From Mytilinidion resinicola (lineage: Eukaryota; Ascomycota; Dothideomycetes; Mytilinidiales; Mytilinidiaceae), in assembly GCF_010093595.1 (NCBI RefSeq), contig NW_022985441.1, positions 1,881,162 to 1,945,161 of the forward strand: a DNA stretch of 64,000 nt. Direction: 5' to 3'. This document shows, in pieces, positions 1,082 to 35,054 of the stretch. Within the stretch, counting starts at the first letter, position 1. The number at the start of each line of letters is the position of its first letter. The position numbers and the translations under genes were made by a program. The notes below the pieces were generated by a model. The model was not told the DNA's origin, ran no database searches, and saw nothing but the letters and a program-made list of their open reading frames with translations.

Positions 1082-3169
1082 CTACGACCCTCCATTCTGG
1101 CCGGCCTGCTCTTGCTTCCACTTGTGCGCCATCTGCAGCAGCTTCGACATCTTGGCCGCGCTCTCGTCGTCGGCCGGGAACACGTAGTCCATGTACTCCT
1201 CGAATGAGTCGTCGTCGAGCTTCCTCCGTTTCTTGACCTTGCGTGGCATTTGCGCGTCCACCTTCTCCAGGTCGGCTGCCGTTCCGTGTGTTGCCTCGAA
1301 CGATTTCCACGCATTGAGAAGAGCAACTCTCTGTATGATAGTTAGCATGTGCCCAGTAAATCCACCATTAGACAAGGGGAAACATACCTCTTCCTTCAGG
1401 TCTTTCTCCTTCATGCTTTTGTACGCCCTCTCGAAGATCTTCCGTGCCCTCGCCTTCGCCTCCTCGCTGACAGGCCTCTCCTCGTCCTCGTCCGCCTCTT
1501 CCTCATCATCAGGCACCCCAATCTCGAACTGAGCCCAGCTGATCCAGACCTTGACGTGATCGGTCTTCTGCAGCAGCCGCTCGTAGAGCTGCCTCGTTGC
1601 GTCGTACTCACCTTCCTCCTCCTCGAAGTCGATGTATGCTTTCCACAGCAGTTCAGGCATGTCCAACTGGGGCTGATCCACAGCGAGTTCGAAAATCGCC
1701 TTGGTTCTTTCTAGATCGTCGAGACCGCGCTCCAATTCCGCAAATTTAATCCATGCCTGGCAATTCGCGGGGTTCCATTCGATGTACTTCTCGTACAGCG
1801 TCCGGCACCTGACAAACTCAAAAAGCTTGAGCTCGAGTTCAATGTAGCCCTTGAAAAGCTTGTCCTTCGGGCACATCCCTATCGCCCTTCCCAGCGTCTT
1901 CCGAGCGGCTTGAAGCTGACCTTGACGGATCTCGAACTGCGCCGCCATCAGCCAGACCTTGGCAAACGTGAACTTCTTATGCGGAAGAAGCTTGAGACAT
2001 TCCTGGTATATTTGCCTCGTTCGGTCCACATCTTTGCTCGTCATTTCCTCATAGAGCGCGTAGAACAGCCATAGGTAGATATATCTCCTCCAGTGCCGCT
2101 TCTCTTGGGTGGGCGGAATTTGTGCAATGGCCCGTTCGTAGACGTCCCGAACCCGGTCCACGTTCCCTGCAGTCTCTTCCAAACGTGCATAATCAATCCA
2201 CGCGTCATAGTTTTTGCCGTTCTCTTTGACTTGTTCCTCGTACTGCACCCTCCGCTTTGACAGAATGACATCCTCCACCCCCTCCCGATCGCCAAACTGC
2301 TTCTCAAATGTGGTGTAGGCCTTGTGTAGATTGACTGATTTGGAACGGGGCATTCGGTCGAGAGCGAATTTGTAGATTGCCCGTGCTCGTTCCAGTTCCT
2401 TCAAACTAGCCTCGAATTTGGCGTAGCTCATGAAGAGTTTCTCGTCCATAAAGTCGTCTCCAAGCGTCTCGATAGCCATGCCATACACCTCCCGAACCAG
2501 ATCACTAGTGCCATTCTCTTGCTCGAAACGCGCCCACTTGATCCAATTCTGCGGCTCCGGATGAACGGTGGTGAATCTCTGGAATAGCTGCCGGGCTCTC
2601 TCAACCTCGTTGTACCTCCTCTCCAGCTTGATATAAGCAGACCATGCTGCTGGCTCAGGCTCCCAGGACATCCATCGCTCAAATACCTGGCGGCATCCAG
2701 CAACATTGCCCAAGGTCTCCTCCATGTAGACATACTTGTACCATAGCTTGTCTACCCGCGGGAGGTAAGACACAGCGCGATCAAGTACGTTCCTGGCATG
2801 CGCAATGTTCCTCTCCTTCATTTCGCTCTCGATGTACCGAACCCATAGCACCACCGACGTATAGTCCACATCCAGCGCGCGCTCAAAGATAGATCTGGCT
2901 CTTCGAAACTCCTTTTGCTCCAACTCGAACTGTGCATAGCGCATCCAGTTGTTCATGTTTATCCGATTCCGTCGTACATAGTCCTCAAACTCCTTCCTCT
3001 TTCGCCCTTGGTACTCATGGAGCTCCTCGAGATCGGCGAACCGCTGTGTCGGCGCTTGCAGGCCTGGTTCTTGTCGGTCGACGGCTTCGCGCAAAAGCTG
3101 TTCGGCGCTGATTTGGATGGGTGCTGCGGCCTTGTTCTTGACCCGAGGGGGTCCCCGTGAGGCCTCCAT
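1082..3169 (-). CDS. CLF1: Pre-mRNA-splicing factor CLF1 (crooked neck / SYF3, HAT-repeat protein)
   Basis: The product is a scaffold of the spliceosomal NineTeen complex, needed for assembly and activation of the spliceosome in the nucleus. The protein is built almost entirely of half-a-TPR (HAT) repeats with the recurring pattern W..Y..FE and ERA..IYERA, beginning near residue 35. The tail is acidic and then basic (KKRRKL). The reading frame is open throughout, but residues encoded by 1331-1387 interrupt the conserved KEE/RVALL junction. This segment has GTATGT and CAG ends, so it is a 57-nt intron without a stop. Removing it gives 676 aa, close to the usual fungal length of about 670-680. 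The start at 3169 ([13 protein letters not shown]) matches the usual short N-terminus before the first repeat. Family assignment is very secure. Confidence 0.96.
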
Positions 3170-3993
3170 GGTGGCGGCACTTGGAGGTTGGAGTTGTCGT
3201 AAAGATAGGTGAGGGGTTTGAGGGCGCGTGCGCCGACAAAAGTCGTCGTCAAGTATGTGAAGTGGTGTTGGACGAAAGTTGTTTGAAGCAAGGTGGAGCT
3301 CTCGAAGTTTACCTGGATGGCCTGTGCGCCAGCACGTGACTGTTTACCGGCCCTCAATTTTCACACTCTTTTTCGACTCCATTCTAACAACACTCACACA
3401 ATCGAAACCACCCCTGGGTTCCTTTCCAAGTCACATACATATTGTCTGAATCTCGATCTAGAAACTGTTAAGCGTTTATTGTTAGCCCAGGCTCTCTCTT
3501 TATGACGATCAACCCCAGAATCTGCCCTTGAATGCCTGTACGCAATATTGCTGCAGCAGATCAATCGTGTCCTTTTCACATCTAGTACTACCTAATCTTC
3601 AAGATATACTAGAAGCGGTAGGCTGCGGTCTAGTTATGCTCATTTCGACGACCTAAAAGGAGCCATGTGGTCATCGGCCGACAACGCATTCTGCCGCCTA
3701 TGTATCCCAGCGTCGATGTTCCGTTATGGTAATTTTCCGTAACCCACCTTGAGGCGCCCTCTCCTATAGATCTCTTATTCAGACTTCCTATACTTTCATC
3801 TCTCATCAAGACCCAATCAGAGAGCTGCTTCCGTCCGGTGTGCTTCCGTGAGTCTCCGTAATCAAGGTGCCTGAATTCTTATCTCGCTTCACAAACGAAG
3901 CCTGCCCTGCTGCATCCATAACTTCCGCAACATACTACATGTACAAATAATTTCCTACACTCTGCCATCAAAGCAACGGATTACGTCACATCA
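3170..3993. other. Intergenic (CLF1 promoter side)
   Basis: This contains the CLF1 5' flank and then unassigned sequence. I see no coding potential beyond short random frames. The segment is less GC-rich than the genes around it. Confidence 0.5.
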
Positions 3994-4140
3994 TCCTCAA
4001 TGGTCTAGTGGTCATGATTTCCGCTTGTCAAGCCTCACAGCTCTACAAGCGCGGGAGAGTAAGCACCACCGCCAACCATTGCCTGATTACCAATCATGCT
4101 AACGGATGTTGCAGCCAGGGTTCGATTCCCTGTTGGGGAG
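3994..4140 (+). tRNA. tRNA-Asp(GTC) with two introns
   Basis: The acceptor strands 3994-4000 (TCCTCAA) and 4133-4139 (TTGGGGA) pair over 7 bp (one G-T), with G4140 as discriminator. The T arm 4116-4132 is perfect (CAGGG, TTCGATT, CCCTG). The anticodon stem is 4020-4024 with 4051-4055, loop T32 T33, anticodon GTC at 4027-4029 and A37 at 4030. Intron 1 (4031-4049, 19 nt) is at the canonical site after nt 37, and its 3' end ACAAG can pair with CTTGT at 4024-4028. The variable loop AGA|C is then interrupted by 4059-4114 (56 nt). Removing both gives a normal 72-nt tRNA-Asp with a four-base AGAC variable loop. An A-box-like sequence (4001-4011), the B box (4119-4129) and a downstream T run are present. 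It could be an inactive copy, but all paired positions are kept. Confidence 0.88.
4059..4114 (+). other. Spliceosomal-type intron inside the tRNA-Asp variable loop
   Basis: The 56-nt insertion begins GTAAGC, has a branch site GCTAACG at 4098-4104 and ends TTGCAG. The branch A (4102) lies 12 nt before the 3' end. Length, branch motif and spacing match the protein-gene introns in this window. Its removal restores the tRNA variable loop exactly. Confidence 0.8.
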
Positions 4141-4160: not shown

Positions 4161-4166
4161 TTTTTT
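4161..4166 (+). terminator. RNA polymerase III terminator of tRNA-Asp
   Basis: A run of six T on the coding strand lies 21 nt after the discriminator base. This is the usual Pol III stop signal and supports independent transcription of the tRNA gene. Confidence 0.7.
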
Positions 4167-34950: not shown

Positions 34951-35054
34951 GGCAAGGTGGCCGAGTGGTTATGGCGTTACGTTTAGGTTAGAGCATCGTG
35001 CTCATTTACTTTCCGTAATTCGAAAGAGCGTGGGTTCGATCCCCACCCTTGTCA
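34951..35054 (+). tRNA. tRNA-Leu(TAG) with 25-nt intron
   Basis: Acceptor GGCAAGG (34951-34957) pairs with 35047-35053, A35054 discriminator. Anticodon stem TTACG with CGTAA (35014-35018), anticodon TAG at 34984-34986, G37 at 34987. Intron 34988-35012 lies at the canonical site and contains a perfect hairpin GAGCA-TCG-TGCTC (34991-35003). A short extra arm (TTCGAAAGAG) is present, as expected for leucine. T arm GTGGG-TTCGATC-CCCAC. T runs at 35060-35063 and 35065-35069 follow as Pol III terminators. Confidence 0.95.

Follow-up and report, generated by a model that had tools for sequence, protein, structure and literature searches.

In the textbook view, the introns of nuclear tRNA genes form a single class, for which the cutting enzyme is a protein endonuclease. 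These ordinary eukaryotic introns, handled by the tRNA endonuclease and a Trl1-type ligase, are located after nucleotide 37. Introns of the bulge-helix-bulge type require neither GT, nor AG, nor a branch motif, and introner-like elements are spliceosomal introns that multiply in fungi. Archaea and the red alga Cyanidioschyzon merolae possess introns or other disruptions at odd positions of tRNA genes, several per gene in archaea, described as bulge-helix-bulge structures cut by the tRNA endonuclease, and special models are needed to find such genes (PMC8450103, PMC4090602, PMC3978253); the available text of the paper presenting models of non-canonical introns for archaeal tRNAs (PMC8450103) contains no word beginning with "spliceosom-". 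Among small structured RNAs, U3 and U6 were, as known by 2017, the only ones often interrupted by introns (PMC5832005). Fungal U6 snRNA and U3 snoRNA are Pol III transcripts, and the introns of their genes are of the mRNA type, GT-AG with a branch site. Spliceosomal introns in RNAs made by Pol III are already known, while in nuclear tRNA genes none was found reported: no such report was recognized by title and abstract among the papers listed, in a search with most subscription journals and preprints outside its scope, and a counter-example is absent from the available parts of PMC4090602, PMC3978253, PMC13149111, and PMC4125763.

The tRNA-Asp(GTC) gene in question is found in a stretch of 64,000 nt (the window), C5:1881162-1945161 of assembly G000 (47.1 Mb, 44 contigs, designated C1 and onward), for which the closest protein matches come from Lophium mytilinum (Mytilinidiales, Dothideomycetes), at 94% over a query of 1288 aa and at 95% for an exon of 347 aa, 91% of which is covered. 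These matches put the host near Lophium, among the dothideomycetes, and speak against a basidiomycete, which the look of the introns had suggested at first. Like the fungal U6 and U3 genes, the tRNA-Asp gene carries an insert of the mRNA type; in contrast to those, the hosts described here are tRNA genes, of many isoacceptors and interrupted at many positions, with up to two spliceosomal-type introns per gene besides the ordinary one. Unlike the ordinary tRNA introns, the extra inserts sit elsewhere, carry splice and branch motifs, and show no bulge-helix-bulge pairing that we could find, and unlike the introns described in archaea and C. merolae, they carry spliceosomal signals. We propose, with a probability of about 0.88, that these are working nuclear tRNA genes with true U2-type spliceosomal introns, their transcripts being made by Pol III and processed by the spliceosome.

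The Rfam tRNA model (RF00005) spans 3994-4140 of the window on the forward strand from end to end (33.7 bits versus the gathering score of 29), and its alignment treats 56 nt within the variable region as inserted. Without 4031-4049 and 4059-4114, a tRNA of 72 nt with the anticodon GTC is obtained, in which the acceptor (7/7), anticodon (5/5), and T (5/5) stems are fully paired and the D stem is paired at three of four positions (Table 1). The first of the two segments fits the position of an ordinary tRNA intron, one nucleotide 3' of the anticodon, and the second does not. The first-pass annotation of this DNA, which had proposed the two inserts and read GTAAGC, GCTAACG, and TTGCAG in the one in the variable region, proves exact in coordinates and motifs, and its wording of a second, spliceosomal-looking intron is now supported by exact GT-AG ends, a branch site, a paralogue with an empty site, and 14 further tRNA genes of the same kind.

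Table 1. Parts of the window tRNA-Asp(GTC) gene (window positions) and the other interrupted tRNA genes (contig positions)
Feature	Position	Strand	Remarks
tRNA-Asp exon 1, mature nt 1-37, anticodon GTC	3994..4030	+	37/37 identical to C14 paralogue
Putative A box TGGTCTAGTGGT, internal Pol III promoter	4001..4012	+	consensus match
Ordinary tRNA intron, 19 nt, after nt 37, tRNA endonuclease type	4031..4049	+	also in C1 and C14 paralogues
tRNA-Asp exon 2, mature nt 38-46	4050..4058	+	9/9 identical to C14 paralogue
Spliceosomal-type intron, 56 nt, variable region, between mature nt 46 and 47	4059..4114	+	empty site in C1; signals
5' splice site GTAAGC	4059..4064	+	sequence
Branch-site motif CTAAC	4099..4103	+	sequence
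3' splice site TTGCAG	4109..4114	+	sequence
tRNA-Asp exon 3: T arm, acceptor 3' strand, discriminator G	4115..4140	+	26/26 identical to C14 paralogue
Putative B box GGTTCGATTCC, internal Pol III promoter	4119..4129	+	pattern place C5:1885280
T6 run, candidate Pol III terminator, 20 nt 3' of gene	4161..4166	+	
Arg(ACG)	C16:258046-258168		one insert, T stem
Arg(ACG)	C9:1351515-1351651 (L098)		one insert, T loop after second T, splits B box; T-run 3'
Arg(TCT)	C10:142801-142925		one insert, T stem
Arg(CCG)	C4:104340-104461		one insert, D loop
Ser(AGA)	C17:609403-609534		one insert, T stem
Ser(GCT)	C24:257740-257882		one insert, T stem
Ser(GCT)	C25:56733-56912		two inserts, anticodon stem and variable arm
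Leu(AAG)	C16:177042-177244		D-loop insert and GC-AG insert in anticodon stem
Leu(CAA)	C1:97298-97515		D-loop insert and insert inside anticodon
Leu(TAA)	C24:255290-255450		D-loop insert
Thr(TGT)	C2:1865851-1866063		two inserts, D stem and T stem
Gly(GCC)	C3:357453-357589		one 56-nt insert, anticodon stem
Ala(TGC)	C4:864590-864710		insert after nt 10; found by script, earlier passed over as a partial match

Paralogues of the window gene were sought by using it as a query against the whole assembly, and three other places were found. One, C14:226333-226479 (-), is a tRNA-Asp gene with both introns of the window gene. Another, C1:2262374-2262464 (+), is an uninterrupted tRNA-Asp in which query positions 1-65 are joined directly to 122-147: it keeps the ordinary 19-nt intron and is without exactly 4059-4114, so that the counterparts of 3994-4058 and 4115-4140 abut. 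The third, C1:2259454-2259518 (-), is a truncated copy that stops at about the insert point. As the end letters bar any sliding of 4059-4114 and the empty site is present in C1, the GT and the AG are the true ends of the insert. The same paralogue bears on the proposal made by ARAGORN, when introns of up to 200 nt were allowed, that the window gene, called as Asp(gtc), has not two introns but a single ordinary one of 70 nt at nucleotide 37; the fold score of the window gene, 29 unspliced versus 31 spliced, lends this some support, but we find it hardly credible, as the C1 gene separates the ordinary intron from the empty site, and inserts in the D and T arms of other genes are inexplicable by one intron at nucleotide 37. 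The expectation that tRNA finders would miss the gene is thus borne out in part: ARAGORN with the bacterial code made no call, while Rfam found the gene.

Between the window gene and its C14 paralogue, the exons are identical at all 72 positions. Matches fall to 49 of 58 columns in the alignment of the spliceosomal-type introns and to 11 of 19 in that of the ordinary introns, and the flanks, compared over 60 nt, match at 0.65 and 0.54, the upstream flanks being slightly alike, judging by shuffled upstream flanks (mean 0.50, maximum 0.62). Against the uninterrupted C1 gene, six exon differences are seen, which make up three compensatory pairs (5-67, 6-66, and 49-63), each a swap of one Watson-Crick pair for another, and two of these three pairs span both introns. 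Since identical exons are combined with diverged introns and the changes are compensatory, the window gene is not expected to be a dead copy, and that it is a pseudogene killed by the insertion appears unlikely. The suggestion of the first-pass annotation that the gene was killed by a recent intron insertion is therefore not upheld, nor were the many normal tRNA-Asp genes found that it had named as a sign of a silent copy: there are one full-length uninterrupted and one truncated gene versus two interrupted ones. Selection on the tRNA sequence is supported by exon versus intron divergence and by compensatory pairs for the Asp genes only. A second empty-site pair is presented by Gly(GCC), for which C1:1207290-1207369 corresponds to the exons of the C3 gene without the 56-nt GTAAGC...CAAG insert, the ends of which can slide by two letters, with one of the three placements being GT-AG.

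Overall, at least 15 tRNA genes have inserts of the mRNA type; the 15 found carry 19 inserts, all 49-57 nt long. These are two Asp, two Arg(ACG), Arg(TCT), Arg(CCG), Ser(AGA), two Ser(GCT), three Leu, Thr(TGT), Gly(GCC), and Ala(TGC) genes, with the inserts in the D arm, the anticodon arm, the variable region, and the T arm, and with two inserts each in four genes. The sources of the genes were the Rfam tRNA matches in the assembly (35 at E≤0.001 and 37 at E≤10, with 63 of 1387 candidates scored), places matching a B box, and one DNA search. As to the B-box patterns, the first 100 of 324 places were covered for GGTTCRANYCC and all 81 for GGTTCGAWTCC; of the 72 places of GGTTCGABCCC, 52 were read, including all those on contigs before C12; GGTTCGAGTCC was followed on C1 to C5 only, besides genes reached otherwise, and GGTTCAANYCC was left out. 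A script checked these places for pairing in the T stem and the acceptor, and the promising ones were read by eye. A DNA query composed of fungal tRNA sequences had no matches.

Spliced folds were scored for 14 of the genes. Both the anticodon stem and the T stem are complete (5/5) in all 14, the acceptor stem is complete (7/7) in 13, and the D stem has three or four of four pairs, for fold scores of 30-32 spliced versus 24-30 unspliced when one long intron was allowed; Ala(TGC), the fifteenth gene, passed a filter of seven acceptor, five anticodon, and five T pairs. The ordinary intron after nucleotide 37 is shared by nine of the 14, namely Leu(AAG), Leu(CAA), Leu(TAA), Thr, the Ser(GCT) of C24, the Arg(ACG) of C9, Gly, and both Asp genes. 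The Leu(TAA) gene of C24, with an acceptor mismatch, a G at position 8, a T5 run within the intron, and only T4 downstream, may be decaying.

The signals were counted in 18 inserts, to the exclusion of the Ala(TGC) one, which was found later. All 18 end with AG, and the donors are GT in 15, GC in one, and GA in two; YTAAY is positioned 9-14 nt before the end in 17, the exception being the second intron of Thr(TGT), whose sole YTRAY is 35 nt away from it; the lengths have a median of 52.5 nt. The two GA-AG inserts belong to the Ser(AGA) gene of C17 and the Ser(GCT) gene of C24, and have the T-stem site and the donor GAAAGT in common. GA-AG intron ends are rare, and these two introns fall outside the GT-AG/GC-AG criterion and count against a spliceosomal reading. 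In most genes besides the window Asp, the insert ends rest on fold and motif. For comparison, five mRNA introns from a single gene, the purine permease of the window, are 46-55 nt long and all GT-AG, with CTRAY 10-15 nt from the end in four of the five. The exons of this gene were mapped with the Lophium protein P0121, and it was used instead of the output of a homologue-free script for mRNA introns in the window, whose 36 candidates were in many cases overlapping or false. The impression recorded earlier, that 4059-4114 is laid out like an mRNA intron, agrees with this set, which it resembles in length.

These signals also bear on the possibility that the extra introns are of the archaeal type, that is, bulge-helix-bulge structures cut by the tRNA endonuclease, with a GT-AG look that is coincidental. 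Extra introns outside of nucleotide 37 are indeed known in archaea (PMC8450103 and PMC4090602), but none of the 18 inserts forms the 4-bp central helix in a simple pairing test for the strict form of the motif, the universal AG ends and the YTAAY placed at 9-14 nt in 17 of 18 are unneeded by such introns, and tRNAs are not recovered with decoy signals (see below), making this a very improbable explanation. Another parallel is with introner-like elements, likewise short fungal spliceosomal introns at new sites. The tRNA introns differ from these in that a concatenated query of 11 of the 19 matched only their own places in the genome, a search of limited sensitivity, as the related C14 intron was also missed; near-identical copies, and with them a multi-copy family of the introner-like kind, were not seen for these 11 inserts.

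How far structure and motifs agree by chance was assessed in two ways. When every deletion of 42-65 nt was allowed in the 14 genes, no deletion scored above the proposed insert in 17 of 18 cases, the exception being the first Thr intron, one point below the best. The fewest best deletions were seen for the Arg(ACG) of C9 (one), Arg(TCT) (two), Leu(TAA) (three), and the first intron of the Ser(GCT) of C25 (four), and in each of these cases exactly one deletion is GT-AG. For some sites, structure alone leaves the ends unfixed, with 132 ties for the window Asp and 860 for the second intron of Leu(CAA). When single deletions of the form GT...YTAAY...AG were made in all the examined loci and the window, 463 candidates gave eight distinct tRNAs, including the window Asp, versus 0/457, 0/579, 0/351, 0/379, and 1/287 for five decoy signal sets, the single case being a real Arg insert, shifted. 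When GC was accepted as a donor besides GT and as many as two deletions were allowed, 13 products representing 11 genes came from 5304 combinations, and decoy combinations (5232, 5102, and 5979) gave no tRNAs. The limits on length and branch distance were set after the inserts were known, with the decoys using the same limits and loci, and the candidate numbers count some places repeatedly, as the scanned loci overlap in part. Four genes, Ser(AGA), the Ser(GCT) of C24, Leu(TAA), and Thr, rest on inspection and fold score. Taken together, the structure, the Asp and Gly empty sites, the conservation of the Asp exons, and the recurrence in 15 genes are established at the level of genomic sequence.

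As to transcription, the window Asp gene has an A box, a B box, and a T-run terminator, the layout of type 2 Pol III genes. Among the 14 scored genes, both boxes are intact in the unspliced gene in 11, at a distance of 93-189 bp, a run of at least five T starts 4-20 nt downstream in 13, and internal T-runs do not exceed three in 12, the others being Arg(TCT) with four and Leu(TAA) with five. In three genes with T-stem inserts, the Arg(ACG) of C16, Ser(AGA), and the Ser(GCT) of C24, the B box is intact because the final G of the intron serves as its first letter. The B box is split in the Arg(ACG) of C9 and altered in Arg(TCT), so that for these two the argument from an internal promoter is weaker. 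Pol II transcription, alone or within longer transcripts from which the tRNA is then cut out, would explain the introns, spliceosomal introns being typical of Pol II RNAs, and the split B box of the C9 gene is in line with it. We nevertheless consider it improbable, in view of the T-runs and intact boxes just described and of an intron-bearing U6 gene that is likewise trailed by T-runs. As A and B boxes and T-run terminators are retained, transcription by Pol III with removal by the spliceosome is favoured over Pol II, as we infer from these features. The U6 gene, C1:2369760-2369910 (L096), carries a 51-nt spliceosomal-type insert with the junctions AGAGAAG/GTACAC and CTAACGTCAACTAG/ATTAGC, and offers a precedent within this genome; it is one of 17 U6 genes above the Rfam cut-off, of which the other 16, being 99-103 nt long, are without such an insert.

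Under the reading preferred here, of Pol III-made and spliceosome-processed tRNAs, Pol III would transcribe the genes from the internal A and B boxes to the T-run terminator, and the major spliceosome would read the GTAAGY-like donor, YTAAY, and AG and excise each 49-57-nt insert in the nucleus. Removal of the insert would restore the D, anticodon, variable, or T arm, and the tRNA endonuclease and ligase would then take out the ordinary intron where present, as its position suggests. For Leu(CAA) of C1, and for this gene only, the order can be deduced: the spliceosomal-type insert is probably removed first, as it lies within the anticodon. Such a scheme suggests that the mRNA splicing machine also helps make tRNAs.

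Whether the interrupted genes are needed depends on the presence of uninterrupted ones. Ordinary tRNA genes in the examined loci that passed strict scoring represent 36 distinct sequences, with a few more below that score. Uninterrupted genes were found for Asp, Gly(GCC), Leu(AAG), Leu(CAA), Leu(TAA), and Thr(TGT), and none was found among the ordinary genes of the examined loci for Arg(ACG), Arg(TCT), Arg(CCG), Ser(AGA), Ser(GCT), and Ala(TGC). Seven spliced sequences, which included the first five of these six isoacceptors and excluded Ala(TGC), served as queries in a DNA search and revealed no uninterrupted relative, only the second, interrupted Arg(ACG) gene. The absence of an uninterrupted copy means that none was found within this coverage. 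The six isoacceptors with uninterrupted genes, along with the truncated Asp copy and the degenerate look of Leu(TAA) on C24, agree with a view of the interrupted genes as dead copies, silenced by mobile or newborn introns, with uninterrupted genes supplying the tRNAs. This view is quite improbable, given the identity of the exons in the Asp pair despite diverged introns, with only compensatory changes versus the third copy, the lack, within the loci and searches covered, of uninterrupted genes for the other six isoacceptors, and no multi-copy intron family seen for 11 inserts.

If the genes are working ones, a further proposal, which we judge reasonably probable, is that translation in this lineage would depend on the spliceosome, with indispensable tRNAs for the Ser codons AGC/AGU and UCU/UCC and the Arg codons AGA and CGU/CGC coming only from genes with spliceosomal introns, some of these introns interrupting the anticodon or the B box, that some pre-tRNAs would require two machines in a fixed order, and that the inserts would represent a new class of nuclear tRNA introns. 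Such a class would have been missed by annotation because eukaryotic tRNA finders model only the ordinary position, and the tRNA sets of such fungi are likely mis-annotated. Spliceosomal introns in tRNA genes would mean that the spliceosome can process Pol III tRNA precursors and that mRNA splicing is coupled to the decoding of whole codon families. They would also offer a natural system for the spliceosome on highly folded transcripts with very short exons, such as the first exon of Ala(TGC) on C4, at 10 nt. Introns have here been gained in genes in which structure checks nearly every base of the exons, so that the places and signals of insertion are exactly readable.

A number of other loci were considered and not counted. 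C5:1656061-1656204 (-), L009, 144 nt, was first read as a Trp gene with an acceptor-stem intron, and its acceptor pairs badly; a CTAAC..AG is present there immediately ahead of the 5' arm of the tRNA-like match. Partly tRNA-like surroundings of B boxes were seen at L058, L059, L060/L061, L108, L110, L111, L123, L126, L128, L133, L146, L148, L155, L157, L168, and L173. One of these, C3:638840-639467 (L126), contains two adjacent tRNA-like units of 75 and 137 nt, with outer arms that match and middles that differ. Two repeat families with a B box, one represented at L133, L146, L148, and L155 (CAGCAGGAACCTTGCCCTAGTGGCGTCGGCCCCGT.. and GGTTCGATTCCCGC-like) and the other at L067, L124, and L157 (CAGCAGGYCGGTCGG.. 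and ..CCCTTGTCAGG), have the appearance of SINE-like Pol III elements related to tRNAs, and some of them contain CTAAC...AG. A search of the assembly with RF00001, at an E of up to 10, found no 5S rRNA gene among the 47 candidates scored out of 2320. A GGTTCRANYCC B box lies 20-32 nt downstream of at least four U6 copies. The window itself contains an ordinary tRNA-Leu(TAG) gene at 34951-35054 (+), with a 25-nt intron after nucleotide 37 and without a spliceosomal-type insert. Adjoining the tRNA-Asp gene, at 1082-3343 (-), a HAT-repeat protein similar to the splicing factors Syf1/Clf1 (Pfam) is encoded, a proximity that is probably a coincidence.
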